Shown here: positions 8,712 through 52,674 of the stretch, one piece after another
Layout of the letters: each line of letters starts with the position of its first letter
Numbering within the stretch: the first letter of the stretch is position 1
NCBI GenBank assembly: GCA_964017185.1
Contig: OZ024875.1
Location: 64,723,043 to 64,787,042 of the forward strand
Reading direction: 5' to 3'
Source of the DNA: Rugalucina vietnamica
Taxonomy: Eukaryota > Mollusca > Bivalvia > Lucinida > Lucinidae
DNA length: 64,000 nucleotides
Program-made: the position numbers and the translations under genes
Notes under the pieces: generated by a model
Databases searched by the model: none
What the model was told of the DNA's origin: nothing
What the model saw: the letters and a program-made list of their open reading frames with translations, nothing else

Positions 8712-8748
8712 GGGTGTGTTTGGTTTGACATTGATCAGTTAAGTCATC

Positions 8749-9546: not shown

Positions 9547-9555
9547 AAAAAAAAC

Positions 9556-9562
9556 TATAAAA
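9556..9562 (+). promoter_or_regulatory. TATA box before the second GG-protein gene
   Basis: TATAAAA, 48 bases before the ATG at 9610. Confidence 0.4.
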
Positions 9563-9609
9563 GCTCAATGTCAGCTAAATTTTAACACAGTTTGCAAAAT
9601 TGCATCAGC

Positions 9610-10014: not shown

Positions 10015-10015
10015 A

Positions 10016-10846
10016 ATGGCCATTGTTCCATTTAAACTTTGGGAAGACATGAAACGCTGGAAAGAAGAACAAATTCAAAAACCTAGATTACCACCTAATC
10101 CAAATGTGTCTGCCACAGCAAGTCTTCAGAGAGACTTATCTTCGGTCATGGCTGACCAAGACATGTCCGAAGCTGAAAAAGCTCAATTATTTGGTGAAAC
10201 TTTACACAAATTTCAATCGGCTCACAAAAAAGCTTTGCAAGATCAATCTTTAAAATTACCAAGTGTAACATCCAGTTCCTCTAGAATGAACCAACTTGTA
10301 TTAGATAGTGTACCTAGCACGATGAAACGAAAAGCACAACTTTTACTTAACATTTTAAAAGATAATCCAAACATGACTTGGGATGATGTTGGTACCGTAA
10401 AACTTTATGGTAAAGCTATTGAAGGATCTAATATCATTGACTTGGTCAATGATGTTTTAAGATATAGAAAAGGCAGTGAACCCACGGGATGGCAACCGTT
10501 TGCTGAAGGGTTAAGAGAAATGAATATTCCTCAAGATGTAATTGGAAATAGGGAAAGGTGGGAGTGGATGCATCGGGGCGTATCTCCTAGAACTCCAGAT
10601 GATAATTATGTCACACCAGCCCAAAAACGTGTTTCGACAGCACGTAAACGTGCAAGTCGTATTCCTGTTTCTAAAACACAGAAAACAACTAAAAGAAAAG
10701 TCAAATCAGAATTTACACCGTCCGAGCTAGCAAAAATTAAAAAGCAGTTGTATTCTCCTTTGTCTGCCACAAAAAGTTATATAAAAGAAGAAATGTCTAC
10801 GCCAAAGTTCCAACCCAAACAGTGGCTCACTTACGATGATCAATAA
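10016..10846 (+). CDS. conserved Polinton protein of unknown function
   Basis: 276 aa from ATG 10016, which follows the previous stop by one base and has a good AAAATGG context; ATG 10001 in the same frame would add five residues and overlap the previous gene. A central block with RKAQLLLNIL, then GSNIIDLVNDVLRYRKG and GWQPFAEGLREMNIP, is of a kind I associate with animal Polintons, where it has no assigned role. The C-terminal 80 residues are basic. The stop codon shares one base with the integrase ATG (10846). I cannot assign a function. Confidence 0.75.
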   Translation: MAIVPFKLWEDMKRWKEEQIQKPRLPPNPNVSATASLQRDLSSVMADQDMSEAEKAQLFGETLHKFQSAHKKALQDQSLKLPSVTSSSSRMNQLVLDSVPSTMKRKAQLLLNILKDNPNMTWDDVGTVKLYGKAIEGSNIIDLVNDVLRYRKGSEPTGWQPFAEGLREMNIPQDVIGNRERWEWMHRGVSPRTPDDNYVTPAQKRVSTARKRASRIPVSKTQKTTKRKVKSEFTPSELAKIKKQLYSPLSATKSYIKEEMSTPKFQPKQWLTYDDQ

Positions 10847-10890
10847 TGAATTTCGACAAATTGTATTATGATCCAAAAAGTCCTGCAGGT
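10846..10890 (+). pseudogene. INT: first 15 codons of the Polinton integrase, cut off by the LINE
   Basis: Starting at ATG 10846 the frame gives FDKLYYDPKSPAG, the usual start of Polinton integrases. It then runs straight into the 3' repeat tail of the LINE at 10891. The rest of the gene resumes at about 14664-14670. This is the 5' fragment of a gene split by the insertion. Confidence 0.75.
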
Positions 10891-10968
10891 CTGAATCTGA
10901 ATCTGAATAGTTTACTGGTGACACGCCAAATGACATTATTTCACCAGGGGGTTCGGATGGGGGAGAGA

Positions 10969-13900: not shown

Positions 13901-14655
13901 AGGTCAAACCTATTTTCACTTTCCAAGTTAAACTGTTCATTGAAAAACGAGTCTGAGAAATTGAAAAAGTCACATTTAGGGCAAATCCATGTACAGTTTG
14001 AGTTTTGCATCGTTTCATACTCTGAGTCTGACATAAAAGAACAGTTATTGTGCACCCACATTTCACATTTGTCACACTGGACAGCCTTATGGGAATTCAA
14101 AACAGCACCACTGCATAGGCTGCACTCAGCTTTGCAGTTTGAACAATACCAAGAATCATTACCCGACTCAATCTTTTGTAACTCAACGGGACCAAGATTT
14201 ACGCAAGACGCATGGAAGCGTTTCTCGCAATCTTCACATTTTACTGCTTTCTCGGCCGCCTTGCAATACTTCTTGCACGTGCGGCACTGGAACCTGGGGC
14301 CTGGGTTCATTTCGATATCTCCAGCCAAAATAATAAGAATCAACAAGTTTGTTCCCTTTGAAGGATTGAAACTGCGTAATCCTTCGGAGCCTCTTCGGTT
14401 ACCAATTTTCCTTGTGAAAGCCAAGCTCTGAGCAGTTCCACCAACTGACTTTCCAAATCCTATACTACAGTCCTGGTTTGAATCTAAAATATCTCCTGAT
14501 GTTGTCCACTTCCAAACACAAAGCCCGAAAACCATCAACAAAGCCAACCTGAGGAGCAGCGGACAAGACTTCGGTGTATGGAAACAACATACCAGCTCTT
14601 TTCCACCCCGACAAGTCAACCGCCCCGCAGTTGGACCGACAAAACCTGAAGCCAT
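10969..14655 (-). CDS. LINE polyprotein: 2A motif, PHD fingers, APE endonuclease, reverse transcriptase
   Basis: 1,228 aa, uninterrupted. In order: a hydrophobic N-terminus; a 2A-type motif GDIEMNPGP at 112-120; two PHD-type Cys/His fingers at about 124-174 and 178-228; an APE-like endonuclease from about 275 (NINSIRGK, QETK at 307-310, GDFNFRD, SDHDIVSG); and reverse transcriptase with TFILDFEKAFD, SGVPQGTVLGPLLF and the catalytic FADD at 956-959. It nicks target DNA and reverse-transcribes the LINE RNA in place. The domain order and the QGTVLGPLLF block fit the CR1/L2 branch. The ATG is very close to the 5' junction. Confidence 0.9.
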   Translation of the reverse strand: MASGFVGPTAGRLTCRGGKELVCCFHTPKSCPLLLRLALLMVFGLCVWKWTTSGDILDSNQDCSIGFGKSVGGTAQSLAFTRKIGNRRGSEGLRSFNPSKGTNLLILIILAGDIEMNPGPRFQCRTCKKYCKAAEKAVKCEDCEKRFHASCVNLGPVELQKIESGNDSWYCSNCKAECSLCSGAVLNSHKAVQCDKCEMWVHNNCSFMSDSEYETMQNSNCTWICPKCDFFNFSDSFFNEQFNLESENRFDLLAKGHETKSTETLTSKNSFISGLKISSININSIRGKKLELLAFIDFHQSKILAIQETKIDNSILTSELFLESFPYSVYRKDRTLNGGGVMLLVHKDIPHMPLTELDNDSESVWVKLFVNKKTHFVASWYRPPVDGHLPVSDNGNDLLNSLEKFDNLFREQLDKIKNINKGNKPPLIHVLGDFNFRDIVWPDRLSKSGSSLSQTEGQILIDIMNDHGLEQLVNFPTRERNTLDLILTSLPGQFADIHSPDKLSDHDIVSGTLKIAIPPIKKPRRKVYRYQKGDYESMRAETLKFAKERYFNGYSDTRSVQENFNLITSFIQESADKHIPSKTSRSVSSVPWITPEIRRKIRRKNATHAKAKKTGSAKFRSKFESLRKEIKADIRKQHDLYVNNLVGDVKANPRDFYRYINSQKKDTQGIPPLKKRNGSGIAQSEFEKAEEFNGQFSDVFTKSEYKQVPLMDRSAPFMHDIVVTKEGVTKLLKGLNPSKALGPDELHPRVLKELAMELGPVFAHLFQQSIDTGEIPKEWSLANICPLFKKGDRSLARNYRPVSLTCIPCKLLEHIVCSNIMAHLDEHELLSDRQHAFRKWHSCETQLTTVINDWAKILDKKGQVDTFILDFEKAFDTPPHELLKSKLFSYGIGGTTLNWINAFLCFRQQRVVLNGIKSDWAPVVSGVPQGTVLGPLLFSLYINDITADIESEIRLFADDCVCYREIKNEEDTLKLQRDIDRLGSWARKWGMRFQPVKCNMMQLTNKRSSKIQANYTLEGTVLENVESIKYLGVTITNDLKWNTHISNVCTKANRTLGFLRRNLYSCPPDVKEAAYKGLVRPVLEYGSSVWDPYTHGLQEELEKVQNRAARFVTGNYVFETGSMTGILSQLKWESLKKRRKDSRLILLYKGLKGKARIPTDDLIPKNRRCRNQHSLAFQIPSASKEAYKSSFFPQTIRDWNDLPDSLISSAEMSDDCVSKFASLVRSRD
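14296..14319 (-). other. 2A ribosome-skipping motif in the LINE ORF
   Basis: Codes for DIEMNPGP (residues 113-120), preceded by a run of Leu/Ile and AG. This matches the 2A consensus D(V/I)ExNPGP, in which the final Gly-Pro bond is not made. 2A sequences are known in APE-type LINEs of invertebrates. It would release about 119 N-terminal residues from the PHD-endonuclease-RT part. Confidence 0.75.
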
Positions 14656-14669
14656 GAGTTTAAATTCAA

Positions 14670-15734
14670 ATGATTAAACAAAAAGACCTTCAATCACTAT
14701 ATGAAGGTTATGCTGGTGAACAAGCTTTGTACAAGCTTGCTAGAAAATCTTCTAAAAATGTCAAATTGAAAGATGTCAGAAATTGGTTGAAAAAACAACA
14801 GACCTACACTTTACATAAACCTATCAGAAGAAAATTTTTACGTCGTAAGACTGTGGTTGCAGGAATTGATCATCAATGGCAAGCCGATCTAGCAGACATG
14901 TCAAAAATGTCAAAGTCCAATGATAAGTTTAGATATCTGCTTTGCATTATCGATGTGTTTTCAAAATTTGCATGGGTTGTACCCATTGCAGACAAGACGG
15001 GAAAAACTTTAGTAAATGCATTTAAACTTGTGTTGAAAAATGGGCGTCAACCAAAAAGTTTGCAAACTGACAAAGGTACAGAATTCAAAAACAGAGACTT
15101 TCAAGGTTTTTTAAAATCTAAGAAAATTCATTTCTTCACAACTGAAAACCCAGAAACAAAAGCAAGTATTGTTGAAAGATTCCAAAGAACTTTGAAAAGT
15201 CGCATGTGGAAGTATTTCACGCACAATCGCACTTTGCGATATGTTGATGTTCTTCCAAAATTAGTCGAAGGTTACAATCATGCATATCACAGAAGTATCA
15301 AACGTGCACCTGTTTCTGTGACAAAAGAAAATGAACCTCAAGTGTCTGAAATTCTTTTTGGCAAACCTAGAAAACTGCAAAAACAAACTAAAATCAAAGT
15401 AGGTGATTATGTTAGGATCAATAAAACTAAACGCACATTTGACAAAGGATATCTGCCAAATTGGACACAGGAATTGTTTCAGATTTCTGATGTGGTGAAA
15501 ACTCAGTTTCCCACCACCTATAAAATAAGAGATCTCGATGGTGAATCTGTCAGTGGTACATTCTACTCTCAAGAGTTACAACGTGTCGAAAAAGATCAGA
15601 TTTTTGAAATCGATTCGGTCTTAGCTCACAGAAAACGCAAAGTTGGGAAAAAGTGGGTTAAAGAAATCAAAGTACACTGGAAAGGATATCCATCTAAATT
15701 TGACAGTTGGATTCTAGAGTCTGATCTTGTATAA
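14670..15734 (+). CDS. INT: Polinton integrase, main part (DD35E, chromodomain), 5' end cut by the LINE
   Basis: 354 codons. Retroviral-type integrase that inserts the element. Catalytic residues in this numbering are D73 (QADLADM), D134 (QTDKGTEF) and E169 (KASIVERF), a DD35E spacing. TYTLHKPIRR at about 46-54 is typical of the family's N-terminal region. The C-terminus has an SH3-like region, then a chromodomain (SVLAHRKRK, KVHWKGY, SWILESDLV) that may direct insertion to chromatin. The ATG at 14670 is internal: the true start is at 10846, separated by the LINE, so the gene is disrupted in place although the remainder is undamaged. The stop overlaps a TATAAAA (15730-15736). Confidence 0.9.
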   Translation: MIKQKDLQSLYEGYAGEQALYKLARKSSKNVKLKDVRNWLKKQQTYTLHKPIRRKFLRRKTVVAGIDHQWQADLADMSKMSKSNDKFRYLLCIIDVFSKFAWVVPIADKTGKTLVNAFKLVLKNGRQPKSLQTDKGTEFKNRDFQGFLKSKKIHFFTTENPETKASIVERFQRTLKSRMWKYFTHNRTLRYVDVLPKLVEGYNHAYHRSIKRAPVSVTKENEPQVSEILFGKPRKLQKQTKIKVGDYVRINKTKRTFDKGYLPNWTQELFQISDVVKTQFPTTYKIRDLDGESVSGTFYSQELQRVEKDQIFEIDSVLAHRKRKVGKKWVKEIKVHWKGYPSKFDSWILESDLV

Positions 15735-15738
15735 AAGC

Positions 15739-16044
15739 ATGAAAATGGATTTTAAAAGTTCATTCAATCGCAGTGGTGATAACACTTCTGTGCAATCATC
15801 TGCAGACAGTAAAACCAAAATAGCTAAAAATCCTTTAACATTTTTCACTCAGATCATTGTAGTTTACATGATAATCATCACATCTCTAGTTCACATCAGT
15901 TTGAGAAGTCCAGATAAAGAATTGTGGTTGATTTTACTCAGCAGTTCGATAGGGTACATTTTACCATCACCTGGTCTAAAATTCAGAAAACAACAATCTC
16001 TGTCTTCTTCTAGTGACGAACTTTCAAAAGAAGTAAAACCATGA
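15739..16044 (+). CDS. small Polinton membrane protein
   Basis: 101 aa from ATG 15739; the upstream in-frame TTG is not needed, and ATG 15745 is an alternative. A hydrophilic Ser-rich N-terminus is followed by two probable membrane segments (about residues 34-54 and 63-79) and a Ser/Lys-rich tail. It starts five bases after the integrase stop and ends in an ATGA overlap with the next gene, so it is part of the capsid gene cluster. The function is unknown; a role at an internal membrane or in particle entry or exit is conceivable only. Confidence 0.6.
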   Translation: MKMDFKSSFNRSGDNTSVQSSADSKTKIAKNPLTFFTQIIVVYMIIITSLVHISLRSPDKELWLILLSSSIGYILPSPGLKFRKQQSLSSSSDELSKEVKP

Positions 16045-16886
16045 AAGATTTTTACTTGACATTACTCAGTGATAGTTGTTTGAACACTTTTCCAAGTAAC
16101 AAACAATCCAATTTTACGGTACGCTTAGATCATCCAATACAAATTGACAAAGAAAATTGGGAAGTTGCTCTTGCAGAAATTATCACTCCTGCAGAAATTT
16201 TAAATATTTCGGATGCCAACAATTTTTTCTTTCTAAGATTAACCGAACAAGCTGCAAAGAGACTCAAATTGTCCAGTAATGAAACAGAAGTATGTACGGA
16301 AAAAGATTTCTGTGTAGAGTATCGACTACAAATTCCAAATTCTAATTACACCTCTGCACATCACTTAATCCACGAGATGCAAAAAGTGATCGATGCTCGT
16401 TTCAAAACTGCATTGGACACAGCTAATCACTCAGTCATTCTGTCATATGGAAATAATAGCAAACGTACAAAAGTACGTTTCGTGGGAGAATATAAAAATG
16501 AAATGCATTTGATGTTTCCACAACCATTGGCAGAAATTCTAGGCGTGGATAAAACATTCTTTGATAAACCCATAGGAAACGATAAGTATCAGTTCAAATA
16601 TGGTGTAGATTTAAATACACATAGCAATCGTTTCTATGTATACTCAGATGTGGCAAATTACACTTATATCGGAGACGTTACTGCACCAATACTTAGAGTT
16701 ATTCCTTTCAAATACATTCAAGGAGAAATTCATTTTCATCAAGAGTTTTTGAATTTGCATTATGTGCCTGTTGCAAAATCTTACATTGATCAAGTTCACA
16801 TTAGTATAAAAGGTGATACAGGTGAAGATATTCCATTCATTACTGGAAAGACATTGATCAAGTTACATTTCAGACCCAAAGAATAA
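16041..16886 (+). CDS. PX: Polinton minor capsid (penton-like) protein
   Basis: 281 aa. The start MKDFYLTLLSDSC followed by NFTVRLDHPI and EVALAEIITP is the hallmark of the protein called PX in animal Polintons, proposed to be the single-jelly-roll penton at the capsid vertices. The rest is beta-rich with scattered aromatic residues, as expected for a jelly roll; the assignment is by sequence pattern and neighbourhood. It overlaps the small membrane protein by four bases and is followed after nine bases by the next gene. The ORF is intact and the length fits the family. Confidence 0.8.
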   Translation: MKDFYLTLLSDSCLNTFPSNKQSNFTVRLDHPIQIDKENWEVALAEIITPAEILNISDANNFFFLRLTEQAAKRLKLSSNETEVCTEKDFCVEYRLQIPNSNYTSAHHLIHEMQKVIDARFKTALDTANHSVILSYGNNSKRTKVRFVGEYKNEMHLMFPQPLAEILGVDKTFFDKPIGNDKYQFKYGVDLNTHSNRFYVYSDVANYTYIGDVTAPILRVIPFKYIQGEIHFHQEFLNLHYVPVAKSYIDQVHISIKGDTGEDIPFITGKTLIKLHFRPKE

Positions 16887-16895
16887 TAAAAAAAA

Positions 16896-17330
16896 ATGCG
16901 TACTCGTGGAACAATTTGTCAATATGGGTCGGGATTCAACGATTATCCCGTCTATCGTGGCGTTTCAAGACAATATGGAAATGGTTTAGGATCAATCTTT
17001 AAAGCTGCTTTGAGAACAGTTACTCCAATTTTAAAACCTTTAGCAAAAGTTGGCATACAGAGTGCGAAAAAAGTAGCAAAAGATCATGGAATTAAAGCTT
17101 TGAGAGAAATTGTTAAAGGTCAGAATGTCAAACAAGTTTTAAAACAGAGAGGAAAATCAGCATTGAAATCTTTTGGGCAGTCTACAATCGATCAGTTCTC
17201 AGAGGGTATAAAATCAAATCAGAAATCCAAAAAGCCTCAGTCCAAATCTAGACATCGACCTGTTCACAAAGGCAGGAGAACACTTACAAGAAAAAATCTT
17301 AGGTTTCCACCAGATTTTTTGAGTAAATAA
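16896..17330 (+). CDS. basic Gly-rich minor virion protein
   Basis: 144 aa. The N-terminus is Gly/Tyr-rich (CQYGSGFNDYPVYRG, RQYGNGLGSIF), followed by an amphipathic helical region with LRTVTPILKPLAK and a Lys/Arg-rich C-terminus. Proteins of this type sit between the penton and major capsid genes in Polintons and recall adenovirus minor core or membrane-lytic proteins in composition; that parallel is inference. Gly-containing sites near residue 31 are plausible targets for the adenovirus-type protease encoded downstream. Spacing to the major capsid ATG is six bases. Confidence 0.65.
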   Translation: MRTRGTICQYGSGFNDYPVYRGVSRQYGNGLGSIFKAALRTVTPILKPLAKVGIQSAKKVAKDHGIKALREIVKGQNVKQVLKQRGKSALKSFGQSTIDQFSEGIKSNQKSKKPQSKSRHRPVHKGRRTLTRKNLRFPPDFLSK

Positions 17331-17336
17331 AACAAA

Positions 17337-18641
17337 ATGATTCAAATTGGTTCTTGCGACTGCAGTAAAACCGAAATAGAAATGGAATCAGTTCCTCCAA
17401 CCATGACAACCATGGAGGATACTCAGTGGACAGATTATCATCCTATTGCTTCATTGGATAGTCATCATGCACCCATTGAATTCGTCATTCCACCACAGAC
17501 AGAAAATTATACAGATTTATCTCAGACGTATCTCTATCTGAGGTGTCGCATTTTGCAAGCTGGTGTTGGAAATGATCTTGAAGCCAACAAGAAAGTAGCC
17601 CCTGTGAATAATTTCTTTCACAGCATGTTTAGCAGTATCGATTTGTATTTGAATAACAAACTTGTGACAAGCAATATGGATACTTATCCATACAGAGCAT
17701 ATCTCGAAAACTTGTTTTCATTTGGTTCTGATGTAAAACAAAATCAACTGAAAGCTGGGGAATTTTGGTACCAAGATGAAACTGGAAAATTTGTTGCTTT
17801 TGATTCTGAGCCGATCAAAGCTCGCATGGCAGCTGTGGCAGAAAGTAAACCTTTGGAATTGATGGGACGATTGCACTTGGATCTTGCCATGCAAGAAAAA
17901 TATTTGCCAAATGGAATTGAGATCAGACTCAAATTGAATCGAGCTTCACCTCAGTTTTGTTTGATGGTCGGTGAAAATGATGCTTATCCCTCGGTAGTCA
18001 AAATTGATGTTGCTAAAGTCTCTGTGAGAACGGTACAACTTCTACCAGCAATCACAAATGATTTGAATCAGACTATAGCTCAGAAACAGGCAAAGTTTCC
18101 TATCAGAAGAGTAGAAGTCAAAACTTTCACGATTAACGCTGGATTGAGATCCAAAATTGAGGATCATTTGTTTCAAGGCCAACTTCCAAAACGTGTGTTT
18201 ATTGGCATGGTCACAAATGAAGAATTTAATGGAAGTTATGCAAGCAATCCTTTCAGATTCCAACATTTCAGACTAAGTAAACTGGATGTCACGTGTGATG
18301 GACACAATATATATGGCAGACCATTCGAACCAAACTTCAATGACGATCAGTATCTGAGATCATACATGTCACTATATCAAGCACTGAGCAGTCAGAATCA
18401 AGTTCAGAACTGTAACATCAGTCTTCAAGACTATAAAGACGGATACTGCTTCTGGGGATTCGATTTGACACCAGACCAAGGAGCTGACCAGAACCATCTG
18501 CACCCTTTAAAAACAGGAAACCTGAGACTAGAGCTTCAGTTTGCCAGACCACTTGACTACACACTCAACGTCATTGTCTACGCAGAGTTTGACAATCTGA
18601 TAGAAATAAACGGACTGAGAGAAGTGACCACAGATTATTAA
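17337..18641 (+). CDS. PY: Polinton major capsid protein (double jelly roll)
   Basis: 434 aa, the main shell protein. The pattern near the start (EFVIPPQTENYTDLSQTYLY), then NNFFHSMFSSIDLYLNN and YPYRAYLENLFSFG, matches the family known as PY in Polintons, shown by structure prediction to be a double-jelly-roll capsid protein like those of adenovirus and virophages. The C-terminal part (RLELQFARPL, NVIVYAEFDN) forms the second jelly-roll's last strands in relatives. It is intact, has the usual length, and lies between the minor virion gene and the conserved unknown. A TATAAAA at 17207-17213 could provide its own promoter. Confidence 0.88.
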   Translation: MIQIGSCDCSKTEIEMESVPPTMTTMEDTQWTDYHPIASLDSHHAPIEFVIPPQTENYTDLSQTYLYLRCRILQAGVGNDLEANKKVAPVNNFFHSMFSSIDLYLNNKLVTSNMDTYPYRAYLENLFSFGSDVKQNQLKAGEFWYQDETGKFVAFDSEPIKARMAAVAESKPLELMGRLHLDLAMQEKYLPNGIEIRLKLNRASPQFCLMVGENDAYPSVVKIDVAKVSVRTVQLLPAITNDLNQTIAQKQAKFPIRRVEVKTFTINAGLRSKIEDHLFQGQLPKRVFIGMVTNEEFNGSYASNPFRFQHFRLSKLDVTCDGHNIYGRPFEPNFNDDQYLRSYMSLYQALSSQNQVQNCNISLQDYKDGYCFWGFDLTPDQGADQNHLHPLKTGNLRLELQFARPLDYTLNVIVYAEFDNLIEINGLREVTTDY

Positions 18642-18645
18642 GAAG

Positions 18646-19071
18646 ATGCATCAGGGCTATTACATTGAGAAAGACCTGGAATACCAAGCAGACGTATACA
18701 GACAGACATTCTCGTCACATAAATCCAACGAACCAAGTGCCTTACAGAAAGAAGTGGAAGGACAAGATGTGAAAAGAGAAAACTTTCTCGTCAAAGCTGT
18801 ATTGATGAATCTGAGAGAAGGTGTCAGAGACTATGTTCGACATGAATGTCAGGGATGTAGAATTGACCATCCAAGTCAGAAATACTACGATATGTGTCTA
18901 TGGACCACTGCAGAAGAATGGATCACTGACTACAAGTACCATGAACCAGCTTTAGAATGCCTCAACATCTTTGATGTCCTCGAGGATTTTGATGATCTCA
19001 TGTGGGAACACATGATGGGATCACAGAGAAAGAGACATGACAGATCAGTGGAAGACATTCTGGGCCAATAA
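18646..19071 (+). CDS. conserved unknown Polinton protein (CxGC..HPSQ type)
   Basis: 141 aa, starting four bases after the major capsid stop. The block RHECQGCRIDHPSQKYYDMC contains Cys and His residues that could bind a metal, and resembles blocks I associate with a protein of this position in invertebrate Polintons; its job is unknown. The C-terminus is acidic, then basic. Another frame that overlaps its last 35 bases (19037-19180) may be its displaced C-terminus or a separate small gene. Confidence 0.65.
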   Translation: MHQGYYIEKDLEYQADVYRQTFSSHKSNEPSALQKEVEGQDVKRENFLVKAVLMNLREGVRDYVRHECQGCRIDHPSQKYYDMCLWTTAEEWITDYKYHEPALECLNIFDVLEDFDDLMWEHMMGSQRKRHDRSVEDILGQ

Positions 19072-19180
19072 ACTGTTAGAATCATACCAAGAAGCAACAG
19101 CAGCTGAAGAAGAAAGAACAGCTGAAGAAAACAACAAAGAACAAGATTGTCCAGAATCATCTCCACCAACAGAAAATTGA
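19037..19180 (+). CDS. possible overlapping small ORF before the protease
   Basis: 47 codons from ATG 19037, in a different frame from the gene it overlaps, ending three bases before the protease ATG (19183). The product would be Glu/Ala-rich and helical (ESYQEATAAEEERTAEEN) after a Trp-rich start. It fills the gap exactly, which supports coding, but it could equally be the C-terminus of the preceding protein after a single frameshift. Confidence 0.35.
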   Translation: MTDQWKTFWANKLLESYQEATAAEEERTAEENNKEQDCPESSPPTEN

Positions 19181-19182
19181 AA

Positions 19183-19761
19183 ATGGATACTATACAACTC
19201 AGCAGAATATTGAACAATATGCCAGTGAAAGGAGAAGTGTGTGCTAAAGACTTATTACCAGATAGAAAACCACTGCACACAAAAGCATACATAGTAAACA
19301 CAGACTTGTCAGATGATCCAGGAGAACATTGGACAGCAGTGTACTTCAGAGACGATAGAGTGATCTTCTTTGATTCCTATGGTTTGCCACCAGATGAAGA
19401 TTACATCCTACCATTTATCAAACGAAATTCAACTGGATGGATACAGAACACACAAGTGTTACAAGATCCATGGAGTAACACTTGTGGAATGTGGTGTATC
19501 TATATCATCTACCAGCTCAACAGAGGACATGATCTGAAAGCAGCTATTCACAAAGAGCTCAAAGGCACAGGAGAAGACTTATCTCAAAATGACAGAGACA
19601 TTGACATGTGGTTCAGAAAGAACTATGGAACATTTATCAAAGACAGTACAATGTGCAAGACAATTCCAGACATCCTTTTAAAACAAAGAGTACAAACTTG
19701 CAGATGTCTGCATAAAACACATTGTCTTTCAAAACAGTATCCCATGTACAGATTATTGTAA
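19183..19761 (+). CDS. PRO: Polinton maturation protease (adenovirus/Ulp1-type cysteine protease)
   Basis: 192 aa from ATG 19183; the upstream TTG in frame is ignored. Cysteine protease of the C5/Ulp1 clan, expected to cleave capsid precursors during maturation. The catalytic set is visible: H49 (GEHWTAV), D64 (FFDSYG), Q94 (LQDPW) and C101 (NTCGMWC). The length is right for the family. It is the last gene on the right; AATAAA at 19857-19862 is a likely polyadenylation signal. The ORF is intact. Confidence 0.9.
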   Translation: MDTIQLSRILNNMPVKGEVCAKDLLPDRKPLHTKAYIVNTDLSDDPGEHWTAVYFRDDRVIFFDSYGLPPDEDYILPFIKRNSTGWIQNTQVLQDPWSNTCGMWCIYIIYQLNRGHDLKAAIHKELKGTGEDLSQNDRDIDMWFRKNYGTFIKDSTMCKTIPDILLKQRVQTCRCLHKTHCLSKQYPMYRLL

Positions 19762-33516: not shown

Positions 33517-35002
33517 CAATATTATATTATAAGAAACATAACTGAATACTTATTTATATCATTCAAGTATTCATGCGAATATGTTATTCCTCTTATTGCA
33601 CTCATAATGCAAAAATGCCAGTCGGCACTTTCATTTCCAAAAACGGTTTTGCAGAGAAAGCCCAAGACAGATTTGATGAAAATAGATTGAACAAATGTTG
33701 CAGTTTGGCCCGCAATACAACACAAATCCATTGAAGGATCGTATATTCGATTTAAGAAGGCGAATTACTGAGAATCAATTAGCGAAACGATTATATGATT
33801 TCTTTGTAAAAAAGCGAAAGAAAATCACTTAAAGCAATTTGTCTTGAATAATGCAGAAAATGGTAATAAATTGCCGCTGATAGATGGAACAATAAGACCA
33901 TTCTTTGCAATGTCATTATTGCTATATTGCTCTGAAATGAGGCTTTTGTGGTGATTCAAATGGATCAGCACTTTAGATGGATGCTTATGTCGTCAATCCG
34001 TAACTGACAAATATTTAAATATTTCCAGATAAATGAAATGCAAACTTGATTACCGGTAGCACTTCGATCACATAAATGATGCAGGGGAAAATACTGTAAA
34101 GTTCCAAGAACCGGCGGTCATACTAACGGTAAGTTACCTCCAAGCTACATGTTGTAGGATAGTCCTAGACGGGATATTCCCGTCGGTGTTTCATGATACC
34201 TTCACACCCCACGAGCGTGGAACGAGGTACCGACGTGTTGCGGAGTGACGATTAGTCATCTGATCTTCGACAGTGCCTTTTTATTGTTGCCAGTTCTGGT
34301 TGAAAACGAAATGGAACATAACTCAATCGCCGTGAAGATAAGCAAGCTTTGGGAAACCTCCCGTTTAATAATAATGTGCTCTCGTCAAAACTTTTGCAAG
34401 TAAGCCCTAAATTGTATAAACTAGAAGAAAGATGGAATCGATTCTAGGCTAGGTTGAAATTGAGCGCAATGAAGATTTAAAATTACCTTTTTTTTTTTTT
34501 TTGGAATTGTCATATTCAAGCGGAATTAAAATTTTCCTAAATAAGATGCCATGATCGTTATTTATGTGGAATTTATCTATAACGGATCGAAGAATTCCAT
34601 CAAATTTGCTCATGCGATATTCTAGTTTCTCTTTCTGCACTATTTTGCACTGACGATAATGTCAGCACAAGGACTTAAAAAGGTACAAGTAGGCAAAAAT
34701 CAGGAAAAGGCGCAATCAGAAAAAGATTCCCACTCCAAAAACCGAGGTGGGAAAAAACCAAACTAACAACAATCAGGCACTCATACCATGAAACATATCG
34801 TAAGACGAATGAGCAGCTATTTTCCCAATAGGTGGCCACTCAGCTACCTTAACTTAACTAAAACTATGAAAACACACATAAGGCGCCAACAGTACAAACA
34901 TTTTTTAAACACCAAGACATAAAACAAAAAGAACCACCACAGAAAATAAAATTAAAACTGAGATCCTTTAAGAGCAGTGAACATATTAATGAGAAAGGGG
35001 AT

Positions 35003-35046
35003 GGGCCATACCGCGGTTTCGACTATTGAAGTCTCGTCAGTGACCC
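35003..35046 (-). ncRNA. type I hammerhead ribozyme
   Basis: On the minus strand: stem I strand GGGTCA, core CTGACGA, stem II GACT-loop TCAAT-AGTC (four perfect pairs), core GAAA, a very short stem III (AC-CGCG-GT, self-complementary CCGCGG), cleavage triplet GTA, then TGGCCC pairing with GGGTCA (six pairs, one G-U). All invariant core bases are present. The short palindromic stem III suggests action as a dimer or in tandem copies. Confidence 0.82.
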
Positions 35047-35375
35047 TTTAGAATTTGGCAACATGGAGCCACAGAGAATAACTGAAATTTTGCAACGTTC
35101 AACAAGGTAGTCGATACAAAGACTAGTATTATCTAAATGAGACCAAATATATTAAACATTGGTTAAAAATGAACTTAACCGATAATAAATTTCTGATTTC
35201 TCATAATATCCTCGCTGATCTCAAAGGACCAAAAGGAAAATATAACCTGCACTATGGATGATGTACGGGGAGACTTTTTAGGGCCGCCACACGGCACAAC
35301 ACCAGCTGCAGTAATAGCAAATAAAATTAAAACTGAGATCCTTTAAGAGCAGTGAACATATTAATGAGAAAGGGG

Positions 35376-35396
35376 ATGGGCCATACCGCGGTTTCG
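35376..35396 (-). ncRNA. 3' half of a second hammerhead
   Basis: Repeats the stem III, cleavage site and stem I part of 35,003-35,022, then ends at the insertion boundary, so the CTGANGA half is absent. Confidence 0.6.
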
Positions 35397-35755
35397 AAGT
35401 ATCTCCTTGGAACGATCAGTAACACAAAGTAACAAGCGGGCTTAAACCGGTTTTACAGGCGCCTAACCTCACCCCCAGCTTCTGCAGTGGTTCATAACAT
35501 TTAGTTAGTTCTTCGGTCCTCGTGGTGAATCTCTAACTAGTCAATGAATCATCAAGAACAAACAAATAAATCATGATAAACATCCTGATGAATCAAAAAT
35601 CAGGACTCACAGATTGAGTAAGCTGCCCGACGATGGAGATCCCTGGGCGCCGGATAACATACTAACTCCGGAGCAAAAGAAAAACACCAGTTGGACCCCG
35701 GTGGGCCAAGCAACAGACAAGAAGCTCCGGCCCCAACCAACTAAAATGAATAGCT

Positions 35756-36330
35756 TTAAGTCGGGGCAATCATAGAGTCTGACACCCGACCCACCGGCGT
35801 GCAATTAAAGAAGGCAGCATAGTTATCAACCATGATTGAGTTAAAAACTAAGCATGCAGACTGTCGCATAACATTCAAGTTATAACCTATACGTCTGTAA
35901 CGTGTTATGATTTTTCTGAACTGAAAAGAAAAATCATTAATTCCTATAAGTTTCTTAAATTTGTAAACCAAGTCACCATAAAATTCAGGTTCCGAAAGGC
36001 CCTCACTTAAAAGCGTCTTTAACCCAACATTATGTTTGGAAATCACTTCATAGTGTCTACGATAAAATTTAGAAAAGGTTTTTCGAAGTTTAAGATACTG
36101 ATAGCCCTGTTGAAGAAGTTTTGCCGTTAAACATTTATTTTGAGCGTTGAAGTCTGTAACATGATTGCAGACTCTAGCAAACCTTATAAGTTGCGAAATG
36201 TATACAGTGTACACCATAAGAAGCACGACGAGGAACGTCACCATCCAAAAAAGGAAAATTTACTATATCAAAATCAAAGTCATCGCGCTTATCATAAATT
36301 TTAGAAGAAACAAATCCATTTGCAACAGAA
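35756..36330 (-). pseudogene. Penelope-like RT, C-terminal part, copy b
   Basis: Contains ISQLIRFARVCNHVTDFN, KLRKTFSKFYRRHYEV and LKTLLSEGLSEPEFYGDLVY, closely matching copy a but running further to RRIGYNLNVMRQSACLV. It is broken on its upstream side by the inserted tail at 36,332. Confidence 0.7.
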
Positions 36331-36331
36331 A

Positions 36332-36680
36332 GGTACAAGTAGGCAAAGATCAGGAAAAGGCGCAATCAGAAAGAGATTCCCACTCCAAAATCCGAGGTGG
36401 GAAAAAACCAAACTAACAATCAGGCACTTATACCATGAAACATATCGTAAACCGAATGAGCAGCTATTTTCCCAATAGGTGGCCACTCAGTTACCTTAAC
36501 TTAATTAAAATTATGAAAACATACATAAGGCGCCAACAGCACAAAAAAATTTAAACAGCAAGACATAAAACAAAAAGAACCACCACAGACGTATCGCCTT
36601 GGAACGATCAGTAACACAAAGTTACTGGCGGGCTTAAACCGGTTTTACAGGATCCTAACCTCGCCCTCAGCTTCTTAAAC
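36332..36680 (-). mobile_element. Penelope-like 3' tail inserted in the RT gene of copy b
   Basis: Starts AAAGGTACAAGTAGGCAAAG (the terminal tail in reverse) and ends near CCTCAGCTTCTT. AGATGTAAATCTAAAAAG is repeated at the junction. Confidence 0.7.
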
Positions 36681-39865: not shown

Positions 39866-40251
39866 AAAAAATAAAACTGAGATCCTTTAAGAGCAGCGAA
39901 CATATTAATGAGAAAGGGGTGGACCATACCGCGGTTTCGGCTACTTAAGCTTCTTCAGTGACCCCATAAATTTGGCAATATGGAGCCAAAGAGAATTACT
40001 GTAATTATGCATCTTTCAACAGGATAGACGATACAAAGACCAAATGGGGCCAAATATACCAAACGTTGGTAAGAAAATGGATCTTAACTGATATTTTTCA
40101 GATTTCTCAAAATACCTTCGCTGATCTCAAAGGACCGAAGGAAAATATAATCTGCACTATGGATGATGAACTGGGAGAAGTTTTACGGCCGCCACACGGC
40201 ACAACACCAGCTGCAGTAATAGCAAATAAAAATAAAACTGACATCATTTAA
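39866..40251 (-). mobile_element. retrozyme-like hammerhead element, insertion 2
   Basis: About 385 bp within the satellite, with satellite units on both sides. The first bases (ATAAAACTGA at 39,871) repeat at 40,232, a 361-bp unit. By eye it is about 80 per cent identical to insertion 1 over the whole unit (shared GCCGCCACACGGCACAACAC). It lies away from any Penelope-like sequence, so the unit moves on its own. The 61-codon plus-strand frame in it is not conserved. Confidence 0.65.
39921..39965 (-). ncRNA. hammerhead ribozyme, diverged copy
   Basis: Core CTGAAGA, GAAA, CCGCGG stem III and cleavage triplet GTA are kept. Stem I is GGGTCA with TGGTCC (two G-U pairs). Stem II is GCT/AGC plus a closing A-C mismatch where copy 1 has G-C, so activity may be reduced. 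Confidence 0.65.
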
Positions 40252-40718
40252 GAATATTCGTTCAGAAAACCAACATACAAGAAGCTAAGAAGAAGAAGAA
40301 TATCTATTTAGAATACCAACATACAAGAAACTAAAAAGAAGAAGAATATCTATTCGGCATTTCAACATACAAGAAGCTAAGAAGACAAGGGAAAGTATTC
40401 AGAAAACCAACATACAAGAAGCTAAGGAGAAGAAGAATATTTATTCAGAAAACCAGCGTACAAGAAGCTAAGGAGAAGAAGAATATTTTATTCAGAAAAC
40501 CAGCGTACACGAAGTCAAGAAGACGTATATCTATTCAGAATTCCAATATACAAGAAGCTAAGAAGAAGCATATCTAGTACAGAAAACCAACATACAAGAA
40601 GCCATGAAGAAGAATATCTTTTCATAAAACCAACATACAAGAAGCCAAGAAGAAGAATATCTTTTCAGAAAACCAACAGACAAGAAGCTGTCCTACAACC
40701 ATAGTCAATATATATATA

Positions 40719-46669: not shown

Positions 46670-46769
46670 GATTTTGGGGGCTCTGAGCCGGGATTGAACA
46701 TTTTGTGCACCTATTTTATTCTGAATTTGAAAAGATATTTATTGTTTGTCATAACAGCAAAAAGCAACC

Positions 46770-47597
46770 ATGTTATTCAAACTTGAAGATTTCATTGCTG
46801 CGCCTTCTCAAGAGCTGTTAAACTTGGCCAATAAGAGTGATCTTTTAGACATTGCTAGTCATTATAGCATACCTGATGTCAAAACATCTATGTTAAAACG
46901 TGAAATTAAGAATGTTATCATTCAGTTTCTTGTTGATGAGGAATTTTTTGAACCCTCAGCTACATCTCTAATTATGGTCTCACAAACCGACATACAGTTG
47001 AAAGAGTTAGAATTAAAAAGGCATCTTGAACTGGAAAAATTAAGATTAGAATTTGAAGAAAAAAGAAGGGCAGATAAGGAAGAAAGGGAAGAAAGAATGC
47101 AAAAAGAAAAGTTAGAGTTTGAAAAACAAAAATTAGTATTTGAAAGAGAAGAAAAACAAAAGCAAAGAGAAATGGAAGAACGACTTGAAAAAGAAAGATT
47201 AGAAAAACAAAGAGAGTTAGAAGAAAGGCTTGCAAAAGAAAAATTAGAGCAAGAAGAAAGAATTGAGGTTGAAAAAGAAAAACTGCAGTATAGTTTAAAA
47301 ATGAAAGAGCTTGAATTGAGCAGTAAATCAATGCCTCCTGTGTCTTTTGATCCTAGTAAAACATTTGATGTTACAAAACATATCAGGCTCGTTCCTCCAT
47401 TTCAAGAAAAAGAAGTAGATAAGTACTTTTTACATTTTGAGAAGGTAGCAGAAAATTTGAAATGGCCAAAAGAGCATTGGACCTTGCTTCTACAGAGTGT
47501 TGTTATTGGTAAAGCTCGAGAAATTTACACTCAGCTTCCACTTGATCAAAGTTCAGATTATGACACAGTCAAAAATCTGATTCTTAAGGCTTATGAA
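46770..47597 (+). CDS. gag: Gmr1-like Gag, N-terminal part
   Basis: About 276 codons belong to Gag. A short N-terminal domain (LLNLANKSDLLDIASHY, SAP-like spacing) is followed by a long charged coiled coil (residues about 70-190, many ELEKLRLEFEEK-type heptads) and the start of the retrotransposon Gag domain (VDKYFLHFEKVAENLKWPK). The open frame runs 32 codons further, but those are translated from the inserted Penelope-like tail. Gag would form the particle core. Confidence 0.8.
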
Positions 47598-47972
47598 GAA
47601 CTAACTAAATGTTGTGAACCACTGCAGAAGCTGAGGGTGAGGTTAGGTACCTGTAAAACCGGTTTAAGCCCGCCAGTAACTTTGTGTTACTGATCGTTCC
47701 AAGTCGATACTTCTGTAGTGGTTCTTTTTGTTTTATGTCTTGGTGTTTAAAATTTTTTGTGCTGTTGGCGCCTTATGTATGTTTTCATATTTTTAGTTAA
47801 GTTAAGGTAACTGAGTGGCCACCTATTGGGAAAATAGCTGCTCATTCGGCTTACGATATGTTTCATGGTATAAGTACCTGATTGTTAGTTTGTTTTTTCC
47901 CACCTCGGTTTTTGGAGTGGGAATCTTTTTCTGATTGCGCCTTTTCCTGATCTTTGCCTACTTGTACCTTTT
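47598..47972 (+). mobile_element. Penelope-like 3' tail inserted in gag
   Basis: Begins near AACTAACTAAATG and ends at CTTGTACCTTTTT. The Gag frame resumes at once (TATGAGTTAGTACC); TTATGA at both junctions is a likely short target duplication. Confidence 0.8.
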
Positions 47973-49124
47973 TATGAGTTAGTACCTGAAGCTTATAGGC
48001 AGAAATTCAGAAATTGTAGGAAAGAACATGACCAAACCCATGTAGAATTTGCTAGAACTAAGGAGCAATTATTTGATAGGTGGTGTTCTTCAAAGGATGT
48101 AAAGTCTGATCATGCAAAATTAAGACAGCTCATGCTTGTTGAAGAGTTCAAACGATGCATACACTCTGATGTCAAATCTTTTCTTGATGAAAGGGAAGTA
48201 GAAACTTTAGATGTAGCAGCACGATTAGCTGATGATTATGCTTTGACTCATAAGGTGTCTTTTGTAAATAAGCCTTACAAGAAACCTTTTAACCCTCAAT
48301 TTAAACCTAATACACCTCAGTCAAAACCATTTAACCCTCAACAGAGAAATAATTCTCCTCAACCTAATCCACAACCACAAGCTGGACTAACAGCTGATAG
48401 TTCCAGTCCTTCACATAATCCTAAAAATAAAGATACTAGTGAAAACAAAGGTCAAAGATCCTCATACTCACCCCGGCTGTTTTGCAATTATTGTAAAGGT
48501 GATGGTCACGTCATTTCTGAATGTGAAACTTTGAAAAGAAGAAAAGAGAGACAAAATCAAAATAATTCTAGACCAACAGGTCTTACTTCTTTAAGGTCAA
48601 AACCACAGTCTATTATTCAGGATGAAAATCCTATTTTGGCCAAAACGTCTGCGACTGATTGTATTATGGAGATTTATGAACCATTCTTATCAGAAGGTTT
48701 TGTGTCGCTTACTAGTGATTCTGCCCAGTCTACCCCTATTAAAATCTTACGAGATACCGGAGCTTCTCAGTCTCTTATTTTAGCAGATACCCTGCCTTTT
48801 TCCGAGAAGACTTCAACTGGGACAAGTGTCCTTATTCAGGGAGTAGAGTGTGGATTTGTTAATGTACCGCTCCATAACATTTATTTGTCTTCAGACTTAG
48901 TTTCTGGTCCTGTGGCTGTAGGTATTAGGCCTTCTTTACCTTTTAAAGGTGTTCACTTGCTATTAGGCAATGACTTAGCCGGAGATAAAGTTGTGGTAAA
49001 CCCACTTTTGACCAATACACCTTGTGAGAATCAATTGCCTGATCCCATTGAGCAGGAAATTCCTGATCTTTACCCTTCATGTGCCGTTACAAGGGCTATG
49101 GCAAAAAAAAGTCAAATTGAATGA
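47973..49124 (+). CDS. Gmr1-like Gag C-terminus, zinc knuckle and protease
   Basis: The frame continues Gag (LVPEAYRQKFRNC, HVEFARTKEQLFDRW, SCAN-like) before the ATG at 48,132. In numbering from 48,132: a Pro/Asn/Gln-rich linker (about 50-110), a CCHC knuckle CNYCKGDGHVISEC at about 118-131, and a retropepsin active site DTGAS at 208-212 with GNDLAGDK later. The stop TGA at 49,122-49,124 follows a run of eight A (49,103-49,110). The pol frame continues one base on, so either a programmed shift or an indel joins them. Confidence 0.82.
   Translation, partial: YELVPEAYRQKFRNCRKEHDQTHVEFARTKEQLFDRWCSSKDVKSDHAKLRQLMLVEEFKRCIHSDVKSFLDEREVETLDVAARLADDYALTHKVSFVNKPYKKPFNPQFKPNTPQSKPFNPQQRNNSPQPNPQPQAGLTADSSSPSHNPKNKDTSENKGQRSSYSPRLFCNYCKGDGHVISECETLKRRKERQNQNNSRPTGLTSLRSKPQSIIQDENPILAKTSATDCIMEIYEPFLSEGFVSLTSDSAQSTPIKILRDTGASQSLILADTLPFSEKTSTGTSVLIQGVECGFVNVPLHNIYLSSDLVSGPVAVGIRPSLPFKGVHLLLGNDLAGDKVVVNPLLTNTPCENQLPDPIEQEIPDLYPSCAVTRAMAKKSQIE
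49103..49110 (+). other. A8 run at the gag-pro/pol frame change
   Basis: Eight A's in an overlap where the upstream frame ends and the pol frame (offset +1) takes over. It is a candidate frameshift site or a one-base indel. Confidence 0.5.
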
Positions 49125-51120
49125 TGGGATACAGGATATTGACTTAACTGACACTTTTATAGGTCAGTCTTTTCATGATGAGATTTCAAAATCTCTTTCT
49201 TCAAGTCAAACTGACTTCAACAATCAAAGGTCAGACAATGACCTTTCACCTTCAATTTTTGACCAAGGTCACGAACAAATGTCAAGGTCACAACTTTGTC
49301 AAGAACAGCACAGTGATCCTGAAATCTCGCCTTTATTTGAAAGGGCTTTAGATGAAAATGAAATTTCTCAGGTTCCTGTTTGTTTTTATGTCAAAAATGA
49401 CATCTTACTGAGAAAATGGCGTCCTCCTGATGTTTCAGCGGAAGACGAATGGACCATAAATCACCAAATTGTGGTTCCTAAGGCTTATCGTCCTGAAATC
49501 TTAAACTTGGCCCATGAAACTCCCATGTCAGGTCATTTAGGGATAAATAAGACTTACCACAAAATTCTCAAGCATTTCTACTGGCCAGGATTAAAATCTG
49601 ATGTTTCCCAACATTGCAAATCCTGTCACACTTGTCAAATGGTAGGAAAACCTAATCAGACTATTCCAAAAGCTAATTTACAGCCTATTCCTGCATTTGA
49701 TGAACCATTTAGTAGGATTATCATTGACTGTGTAGGTCCGTTACCCAAGACTAAATCCGGTTGCCAATATCTCTTGACTATAATGTGTGCTTCAACACGT
49801 TTTCCTGAAGCAATTCCACTCAGAAATATCAAGACGAAAACAATAGTTAAGGCCCTTGTAAAGTTTTTCACACTTGTAGGTCTTCCAAAATCAGTCCAAT
49901 CAGATCAGGGTTCCAATTTTATGTCAGGAACATTTCAGCAAGTAATGCATGAACTTGGCATTAAACAATACAAGTCATCAGCTTATCATCCTGAAAGTCA
50001 AGGTGCTTTGGAAAGATTCCATCAAACTTTGAAGAACATGATCAGATCTTACTGCTTTGACACCGAAAAAGATTGGGATGAAGGCATACATTTGCTATTA
50101 TTTGCTGTCAGAGAGTCAGTACAAGAGTCTCTTGGGTTCAGTCCGTTTGAACTTGTTTTCGGACACACTGTTCGTGGACCTTTAAAACTTATGAAAGAGA
50201 AGTTTCTTTCAAGTAATGACAGTCCTTTGAACTTACTTCAGTATGTGTCTGACTTCAAAACTAGATTGACAAAAGCTTGGGAAGTTGCTCGGTCCAATCT
50301 TAAGTCAGCTCAGAGCAAAATGAAGTTGCATTTTGATGAAAATGCTCAGAACAGAAATTTTGACCCTGGAGACAAGGTGATTGCTCTTTTGCCCATTCCT
50401 GGCAGGCCATTACAAGCTAGATATTATGGTCCATATACTGTTGAGAAAAGGTTAAGTGATGTAAATTACATTGTTAACACTCCTGGGAGGCGCAAGCAAA
50501 AACAATTGTGTCATATTAACATGCTTAAAAAGTACATTGATAGGGATAGTGATAATGATAGTTCAGTTATTTCCTCAGTAAGCATAGTTAATTCTGTCCC
50601 TCATGAACAAAATCAGACAGACTTTGAAGAAATGAACTCTGTGAACTGTGAACCATTATCCTCAAAACTCCAGAATTCTGACATTCTGCATGACCTCGAT
50701 CAGAAACTGTCACATCTAGATCCGGACAAGAAACATGAACTAAAACAATTAATTCTTGAATATGAGCACTTATTTCCGGACATTCCATCCAGAACCGATA
50801 AAATCTACCATGATGTAGACATTATTGAAGGAGCAAAACCGGTGAAACAACATCCGTATAGACTTCATCCTGAAAGACAACAATATCTCAGGAAAGAAGT
50901 TAAGTATTTGCTGGACAATGACTTTATAGAACCTAGTCAAAGTGAATGGAGTTCTCCTTGTATACTTGTGCCAAAATCTGATGGGACATTTCGAATGTGC
51001 ACAGACTATAGAAAAGTAAATTCTGTCACAAAAACTGGCACATTTCCCATACCAAGAATTGATGACTGCATCAACAACATTGGTCACGCCAAATATGTGA
51101 CAAAATTCCATCTATTGAAA
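49112..51120 (+). CDS. pol: Gmr1-like pol part 1: integrase, then RT N-terminus
   Basis: The frame is open back to 49,024. Integrase comes first: the zinc-binding HHCC (HETPMSGHLGINKTYHKIL, then CKSCHTC), catalytic D in IIIDCVGPLP, D in SDQGSNFMSG and E in ESQGALERFHQT, then a GPY/F module (PLQARYYGPYTV). RT follows: WSSPCILVPKSDGTFRMCTD, PIPRIDDCI, and motif A KFHLLK at about 51,103-51,120. There the catalytic Asp is replaced by His (CAT at 51,109-51,111). The gene is then broken by a Penelope-like tail. Confidence 0.85.
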
Positions 51121-51732
51121 AGGTTTTGGTTGGGGCCGGAGCTTCTTGTCTGTTGCTTGGCCCACCGGGGTCCAACTGGTGTTTTTCTTTTGCTCCGGAG
51201 TTAGTAGGTTATTCGGCGCCCAGGGATCTCCATCGTCGGGCAGCTTACTCAGTCTGTGAGTCCTGGTTTTTGATTCATCAGGATGTTTATCATGATTTAT
51301 TTGTTTGTTCTTGATGATTCATTGACTAGTTAGAGATTCACCACAGGACCGAATAACTAACTAAATGTTATGAACCACTGCAGAAGCTGAGGGTGAGGTT
51401 ATGGCCATGTAAAACCGGTTTAAGCCCGCCAGTAGCTTTGTGTTACTGATCGTTCCAAGTCGATACTTCTGTGGTGGTTCTTTTTGTTTTATGTCTTGGT
51501 GTATAAAAATTTTTTTGTGTTGTTGGCGCCTTATGTGTGTTTTCATATTTTTGGTTAAGTTAAGGTAACTGAGTGGCCACCTGTTGGGAAAATAGCTGCT
51601 CATTCGGCTTACGATATGTTTCATGGTATAAGTGCCTGATTGTTGGTTTGGTTTTTTCCCACCTCGGTTTTTGGAGTGGGAATCTTTTTCTGATTGCGCC
51701 TTTTCCTGATCTTTGCCTACTTGTACCTTTTT
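51121..51732 (+). mobile_element. Penelope-like 3' tail inserted in the RT gene
   Basis: About 610 bp, the longest plus-strand tail: GGTTTTGGTTGGGGCCGGAG ... to ...CTTGTACCTTTTT. It is non-coding and splits RT between motif A and the YIDD motif. Confidence 0.82.
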
Positions 51733-52674
51733 CCATTTATAGACAGTCCAAAGGAGATTTTAGAATTTGTTACTACAGAAAGACAATTTCGAAATAAACT
51801 GAAAGCGCTGAAATGTTGCTTGGTTCGCTTGGTTAATAGTTTGATTTTCGGTCTGGATGGGTGTAAAGCTTACATCGACGATGCCATCATCTACAGTGAA
51901 GAGTGGAAACAACACCTGGAGATCATCAGAGAATTCTTCAAAAGACTCAGTGATGCTAAACTGACAATAAACTTACCGAAAAGTGAATTTTGCCATGCTA
52001 GTTTGACATTTCTAGGACATATTGTTGGACAAGGTCAGGTCAGACCTGTAGAAGCCAAAGTTGAGGCTATATCAGATTTTCCTGTACCTACAGGAAAACG
52101 GCAACTGATGCGCTTTTTGGGTATGGCTGGATATTACAGAAAGTTCTGTAATAATTTTTCAGTTATAGCTGAGCCTTTGACAAATTTACTTGGTAAGAAG
52201 GTCAGGTATGTTTGGTCTGAGGCTTGTCAGAAGTCTTTTGATCAGTTAAAGGCCATACTTAAGAGTGCTCCAGTTCTATCAGCACCACGCTTTGACAGAG
52301 AATTCAAAATGGCGGTGGATGCAAGTGATGTTGGTGCAGGCAGTGTATTGTTACAAGAAGATGACAATGGTGTTGATCATCCTGTTTGTTACTTTTCAAA
52401 GAAGTTTGACAAACATCAAAGAAATTATTCTACTATAGAGAAAGAATGTCTATCTCTTATTCTTGCCCTTCAACACTTTCAAGTGTATCTGTCTTCTGCA
52501 AATTCACCAATTGTCGTCTTCAGTGATCACAATCCACTGACCTTCATACACAAAATGAAAAACAAGAATCAGCGTTTGCTCAGATGGAGTCTCATGTTGC
52601 AAGAGCACAATCTTGACATTAGACACATAAAAGGTAGAGATAATATAATTCCAGACACCCTTTCAAGAGCTTGA
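51733..52674 (+). pseudogene. pol: Gmr1-like pol part 2: RT C-terminus and RNase H
   Basis: Begins in a worn stretch: the RT segment between motif A and YIDD is altered, probably by compensating frameshifts. It then regains the family pattern: LVNSLIFGLDGCKAYIDDAI (catalytic YIDD), SEFCHASLTFLGHIV, RFLGMAGYYRKFC. RNase H follows with MAVDASDVGAGSVL, STIEKECLSLILALQHF and FSDHNPLTFIHK. It stops at 52,672-52,674 shortly before the purine tract and 3' LTR, with no integrase after RNase H. Confidence 0.82.

Follow-up and report, generated by a model that had tools for sequence, protein, structure and literature searches.

An animal retrozyme in Rugalucina vietnamica with a fixed insertion end and a 41-nt element in common with a Penelope-like element

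Metazoan non-LTR retrozymes are described as short tandem arrays of units of about 150–450 bp in many copies, with a type I hammerhead, a low GC content (<50%) and no protein. They lack LTRs, a primer binding site (PBS) and a polypurine tract (PPT), and their RNA self-cleaves and forms circles in tissue. According to PMC7229834, the units of Mytilus galloprovincialis measure 350–390 bp, the mussel genome holds about 5000 hammerheads and target site duplications (TSDs) of metazoan retrozymes, when present, are longer than 4 bp. The enzyme that copies animal retrozymes into DNA has so far been a guess, for which the same paper puts forward Penelope-like elements (PLEs) as a strong candidate. Plant LTR retrozymes are likewise non-autonomous elements with a hammerhead and a circular RNA intermediate (PMC4918200, PMC7229834), but they carry a type III hammerhead, LTRs, a PBS and a PPT over about 700 bp, and Gypsy was suggested as their partner. 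Among the PLEs themselves, the lizard Penelope/Poseidon element PAc (Anolis) starts reverse transcription inside its RNA, 111–118 nt into the ORF; its hammerhead cuts at position 26 and the first 172 nt of the RNA are needed (PMC11167929).

The window analysed here is a stretch of 64,000 nucleotides of contig OZ024875.1 of the bivalve Rugalucina vietnamica, whose genome assembly comprises 1,089,854,562 bases in 47 contigs. An insertion of 1.2 units with an exact period of 375 bp was found at 34945–35396, inside the tail of a PLE; its RNA corresponds to the minus strand. The element belongs to a known kind, the animal non-LTR retrozymes. What is new is the position of the insertion ends in samples of copies from the genome, and a 41-nt element common to the retrozyme and a PLE. 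The features of the window are the following (all on the minus strand).

34945..35396, minus strand: retrozyme insertion, 1.2 x 375 bp
34941..35022, minus strand: repeated end, 3' copy, with the fixed 3' terminus of the insert on its low side (34944/34945)
35316..35397, minus strand: 5' copy of the repeated end (putative second pass over the template), which begins at the hammerhead GAAA
35003..35046, minus strand: type I hammerhead, with a predicted cut between 35009 and 35008
35260..35300, minus strand: 41-nt element, identical to one in the 5' region of the PLE
34677..34944, minus strand: 3' part of the PLE tail, downstream of the insert in the RNA sense, with the fixed PLE 3' end ...CTTGTACCTTTT
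35397..35980, minus strand: PLE tail upstream of the insert in the RNA sense; target with the 3-bp duplication TTC
35756..36259, minus strand: C-terminal fragment of the PLE reverse transcriptase
39867..40253, minus strand: copy 2 of the retrozyme, 1.03 units long, in a 46-bp minisatellite
39921..39964, minus strand: hammerhead of the second copy; stem II pair 2 changed from A-U to G-C and pair 1 broken (A.C), judged by eye
40165..40205, minus strand: 41-nt element of the second copy, with 36 of 41 positions as in the first

The original prediction had described a protein-free 375-bp unit, repeated 1.2 times and cleanly inserted into a PLE tail, and these points held. The two repeated ends differ at 1 of 82 positions, and the sole mismatch, at 34943, lies outside the insert. 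The two sides of the PLE tail meet at the insertion point in seven of the eight other window copies printed (one of these seven uninterrupted tails diverges a few bases further on; the eighth copy is too diverged). Both flanks carry TTC, i.e. a 3-bp duplication. No stop-to-stop frame of at least 150 aa overlaps 34945–35396, and the GC content of the unit is 38.1%. The second copy, 84% identical to the first, was absent from the original prediction. Other mobile DNA was also noticed in the window: a Polinton/Maverick-like gene set at 3556–19761 (PolB, A32-like ATPase and an integrase with a chromodomain, assigned with Pfam), a PHD-finger LINE on the opposite strand to it at 10969–14673, and a Gypsy-like element at 46755–52674 broken by PLE tails at about 47595–47974 and 51126–51732.

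The hammerhead had been predicted on the minus strand with every invariant core base, a four-pair stem II and a six-pair stem I, and all of these were recovered at 35046–35003 (CTGACGA, GAAA and GTA; stem I with one G.U pair), together with a stem III of two pairs closed by a CGCG loop. The pattern search that had been proposed as a check succeeded: a strict scan found this hammerhead as the only one in the window, and 30 mononucleotide shuffles gave a single match. The Rfam part of the check succeeded only below the cut-off: RF00163 scored 15.6 bits on this hammerhead against a cut-off of 34, and no hammerhead was reported in the window at the gathering score. The free-energy minimum is another fold (-12.5 kcal/mol versus -8.6 kcal/mol for the hammerhead). 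The low Rfam score and the more stable alternative fold would both suit a chance likeness in an unrelated repeat, which the genome-wide counts make extremely improbable. The pattern CTGANGAN{8,20}GAAACCGCGGTATGG, matched exactly, occurs 2666 + 2728 = 5394 times in the genome, close to the number given for the mussel in PMC7229834 (about 5000), and because the reversed pattern occurs 0 times a chance hammerhead was excluded. Exact cores thus number thousands. Conservation was followed in 112 hammerheads of regular length from 66 loci; irregular ones were left out, and copies from the same array are not independent. All 12 pairs are kept in 93 of the 112. Among 37 distinct hammerheads, stem II pair 2 is A-U in 20 and G-C in 17, so that it is paired in every one of them (maximum in shuffled sets, 33), a compensatory change that also argues against chance. 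No excess over shuffling was seen for the remaining pairs in stems I and II, and the counts for stem III say little because the extraction fixed most core letters.

Two samples of genomic copies were used to map the insertion ends. The insert as a genome query gave 90 matches from the best 40 of 3841 candidates scored; 39 loci of the best matches and both window copies made up sample 1 (50 arrays), in which young copies with a length of at least about 1.2 units are favoured. Sample 2 was drawn from 30 loci at the first places on one contig (C1) that matched the hammerhead pattern, each locus thus needing a hammerhead core; two loci already counted (L050 and L074) were dropped, leaving 35 arrays. 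Positions are given as an index, the RNA position counted from the predicted self-cleavage site. The 3' ends fall at index 57–74, a stretch of 18 nt, in 46/50 arrays of sample 1 and 29/35 of sample 2 (75/85 in total). They lie at 62–65 in 49 of the 85 arrays, the commonest positions being 64 (22/85) and 63 (16/85). Each of the four misses in sample 1 is an array that has been broken up; the remaining half of L011, L017 and L030 ends at 60–70, and the break is bordered by PLE sequence in L016, L017 and L030. In sample 2, L061 is also split, with the other half ending at 63, and the remaining five misses (L048, L060, L062, L071 and L076) are diverged copies whose mapped end stops short, at 21–47. 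One 18-nt stretch common to 75 of 85 arrays fits the expectation that the junctions would reveal where such an RNA enters DNA. In the window insert, 34944/34945 is inferred to be the start of reverse transcription, about 64 nt 3' of the predicted cut.

The 5' ends occur all round the unit, though unevenly: index 325–374, in or just before the hammerhead, holds 20/50 + 10/35 of them (30/85 arrays). Since the sample 1 query and the sample 2 pattern both favour this region, the excess was read no further than as a possible stop; sampling explains part of it only, and the rest is possibly due to a stop at the folded ribozyme. Array lengths range from 0.2 to 5.4 units overall. Arrays with the fixed end measure 65–829 nt in sample 2 (19/29 shorter than one unit) and 83–2013 nt in sample 1. 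The whole pattern suggests that reverse transcription begins at a fixed point and terminates freely, the cleavage site being passed once or several times. Unit-length copies had been anticipated elsewhere in the genome, and arrays of up to 5.4 units are indeed dispersed over many contigs; with the type I hammerhead and the protein-free short tandem arrays, these many dispersed copies agree with the retrozyme-like identity first proposed. One 65-nt piece starting from the cleavage site (L049:2941) was considered as a product of cleaved RNA and rejected, as its flank resembles a decayed hammerhead by eye; it was kept in the counts. No sharp peak of conservation was seen along the retrozyme unit, and exact retrozyme patterns were absent from viral contigs and prokaryote genome contigs.

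Head-to-tail tandem arrays of similar units would also be produced by satellite DNA spreading through unequal crossing-over or DNA circles, with no RNA step. The single fixed 3' end with variable 5' ends (75/85), the dispersed sites and the precise empty site are, however, marks of reverse transcription, and satellite spread is very unlikely. The retrozyme might instead be moved by a LINE as an ordinary SINE, the 41-nt match being a sequence capture with no function: a fixed 3' end with 5' truncation is LINE-like too, and a PHD-finger LINE is present in the window. Against this, a target duplication of at least 8 bp was found in 0/74 arrays, and the 41-nt identity, its equal distance from both insertion ends and the roughly 300 occurrences of the PLE version would all be accidental, so that LINE mobilization is judged improbable. 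Duplications of at least 5 bp occur in 16/74 arrays versus 15% in the control, barely above it, whereas metazoan retrozymes are credited with TSDs of more than 4 bp when present (PMC7229834).

Three further retrozymes (L013, L032 and L039) also lie in PLE tails, near tail coordinates 178–202, and L009, less clearly, at 261–269, near the site of the window insert. In L013 about 29 bp of extra sequence (2199–2227) stand at the 5' junction. Nesting occurs both ways, with PLE copies inside the retrozymes of L016, L017 and L030, and within the hammerhead in L017 and L030. A strong target preference for PLE tails was considered and dropped, the bias being slight (PLE tail covering 9.8% next to retrozyme junctions versus 6.5% farther off).

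Copies within an array were compared with copies of other arrays in 42 arrays of sample 1 (three shorter than 200 nt and five under 93% identity were left out, and unit positions 52–79 were not used). Copies differ at 1.43% of positions within an array (0.0143) versus 3.48% between arrays (0.0348). The within-array difference is the lower one in 37/37 arrays with enough overlap, although barely so in L030, L036, L038 and L045. Variants carried by all copies of an array also occur in other arrays in 64/92 cases, whereas 123/172 of those present in some copies only are private (Fisher p 1.7e-10 for the contrast). On the whole, one RNA copied several times and then mutated in place would leave such a pattern, part of which could be imitated by gene conversion within arrays. 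The other 49/172 within-array variants recur in other arrays, one of them in 16 others, and are not predicted by a single circle unless mutations recur.

These recurring variants bear on a reading with the same element and the same PLE enzyme in which, in place of a circle, a linear multimer transcribed from a homogeneous tandem array serves as the template. Uniform source arrays would also yield a fixed 3' end, lengths above one unit and units that resemble one another, the 49/172 variants common to other arrays would be accounted for, and in the lizard PLE hammerhead activity is not needed for insertion in vitro (PMC11167929). Yet intact hammerheads (93/112 with all 12 pairs) should cut multimers, and a copied older array would pass on its internal differences, whereas 123/172 within-array variants are private. 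Circles are moreover the main form in a mussel retrozyme family (PMC7229834). A linear template is on balance rather unlikely, though it deserves more weight than the other alternatives considered here, and a circle is the template preferred below.

The surrounding PLE family is abundant: its reverse transcriptase (RT) gave at least 102 matched places scored among 33,627 candidates in the genome. Many of the matches have a 640-aa open frame, and several stand in runs spaced about 4.2 kb apart. Locus L084 spans one such tandem junction; tandem copies give pseudo-LTRs. Ahead of the RT in L084, a GIY-YIG-like stretch scored below threshold (E 0.0055). The profile RVT_1 was not found in the 640-aa PLE piece; it was sub-threshold in the relative P0015 and precomputed for the relative P0131. 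For the RT of the partner, nothing credible was returned among solved structures or in NCBIfam, and a structure model of the protein was unusable (mean pLDDT 42.6). The RT was recognised by its motifs. Naiad-type PLEs have permuted domains, with the GIY-YIG before the RT, and in-frame TGA codons. The candidate partner is like them in its GIY-YIG-like stretch before the RT, its in-frame TGA codons and its tandem copies; it would be placed among PLEs by its motifs, the sub-threshold GIY-YIG match and its layout. At L084:848–3301 the only interruptions of the reading frame are TGA codons, which by eye lie close to the GIY-YIG motif and ahead of the RT; they possibly encode selenocysteine, as in Naiads. 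Two RT relatives (P0160 and P0165) are filed under Thiodiazotropha. Since Thiodiazotropha are clam symbionts, these records may hold host DNA.

In the window tails the PLE has a fixed genomic 3' end, which falls at ...CTTGTACCTTTT or beside it (10 places printed, of which 20704 is not a true end). Tail pieces start at tail coordinate 1–7 in 49 of 65 cases, and the other 16 are cut inside the tail. In tandem copies PLE sequence runs past this fixed 3' end, as expected of PLE insertions that end at an internal reverse-transcription start. No hammerhead, a motif known from PLE pseudo-LTRs, was found in L084, where pattern matches lack hammerhead stems by eye and Rfam gave none at E up to 10, nor in L078–L083 by pattern and eye. 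A stretch of the PLE tail (L084:292–356) resembles a type-P1 twister (RF03160, 20.8 bits for a cut-off of 67.2, E 0.46). It recurs in the window tails at 35396–35453 (minus strand), 36576–36645 (minus), 47656–47725 (plus) and 51412–51481 (plus), and the window retrozyme is inserted inside one such stretch. Among 18 distinct sequences one P2 pair of this twister-like fold changes on both sides and is mostly still paired, and two palindrome pairs (CCGG/TCGA/CTAG) likewise change on both sides.

A stretch of 41 nt is identical in the autonomous tandem PLE and in retrozyme positions 83–123; the identity was found in L084 (E 1.6e-16 versus the unit references) and in L083. The gap between the insertion end and this element is 17–18 nt in the PLE, and in the retrozyme 18 nt in 22/75 arrays and 19 nt in 16/75. 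A pattern joining the PLE tail end to the element (gap of 14–28 allowed) had 312 genome matches versus 0 for the control, and 51 of the 55 matches listed with letters have the same length. The matches include at least one chimera: at C1:17008497–17008542 (genome G000) a PLE tail end is fused to retrozyme sequence near the start site, which could have arisen by insertion at the shared start site or by a template switch to it. The version of the element carried by subfamily B, which is older, gave 0 exact matches beside the tail of this PLE. The 41-nt copies fold alike because they are identical. An outer stem round them was considered as covariation between PLE and retrozyme and was rejected, as shuffled flanks pair as well in 886 and in 652 of 3000 trials (22–30%).

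The distances can be set beside those of the lizard element. By arithmetic on PMC11167929, the hammerhead cut of PAc lies about 85–92 nt from the start of reverse transcription, compared with about 64 nt here, and some 55–60 nt of RNA are needed beyond the start, the zone in which the 41-nt element stands. Because of this location the 41 nt were read as a recognition element for the PLE protein. PAc differs in being autonomous, with a C-terminal GIY-YIG and its own hammerhead, whereas here the ribozyme element is separate from the candidate PLE. The best reading of the sequences is that the 41-nt stretch is the reverse-transcription start signal of the PLE, presented by the retrozyme on a circular or at least multimeric RNA. 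The original prediction had left to another element's machinery the task of reinserting the RNA; a candidate can now be named, the same PLE family that hosts this copy, through the common 41-nt element. Neither a fixed insertion end nor a PLE-common element is given for metazoan retrozymes in the available part of PMC7229834, or reported in the titles and abstract openings covered by a partial literature survey.

The following route is considered probable from the genomic sequences. A non-autonomous animal retrozyme would be transcribed and its transcripts trimmed by the hammerhead to 375-nt monomers, which a cellular ligase would close into circles. The PLE protein would bind the common 41-nt element on the circle and, where the target is nicked, begin reverse transcription from the fixed site immediately 5' of that element. 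Copying would proceed toward the RNA 5' side, covering anything between part of one turn and over five turns, after which the cDNA would be joined, mostly with little target duplication. As the element is located 3' of the start site, the template has to extend beyond that site, as would a retrozyme circle or, for the PLE, a head-to-tail RNA or a circle. A retrozyme circle would offer the start site and the element in the right order endlessly; a PLE transcript would do so only if head-to-tail or circular.

A broader reading is put forward tentatively, as possible but doubtful. The 41 nt might be a portable PLE start signal and retrozymes minimal circle-making parasites of PLEs, while the PLE itself would move through a large circular RNA trimmed by the twister-like fold instead of a hammerhead. 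With the signal 3' of the start, only a tandem or circular RNA, which runs on beyond its own end, could then be copied.

For animal retrozymes, the insertion ends of many copies, and a 41-nt stretch at the same distance from the retrozyme end as from the PLE end, point to a specific candidate partner and to a precisely placed putative start. Which enzyme copies these RNAs into DNA can now be tested with a single purified protein and a single RNA of 375 nt, and the arrangement hints at a general rule of recognition by PLE enzymes.
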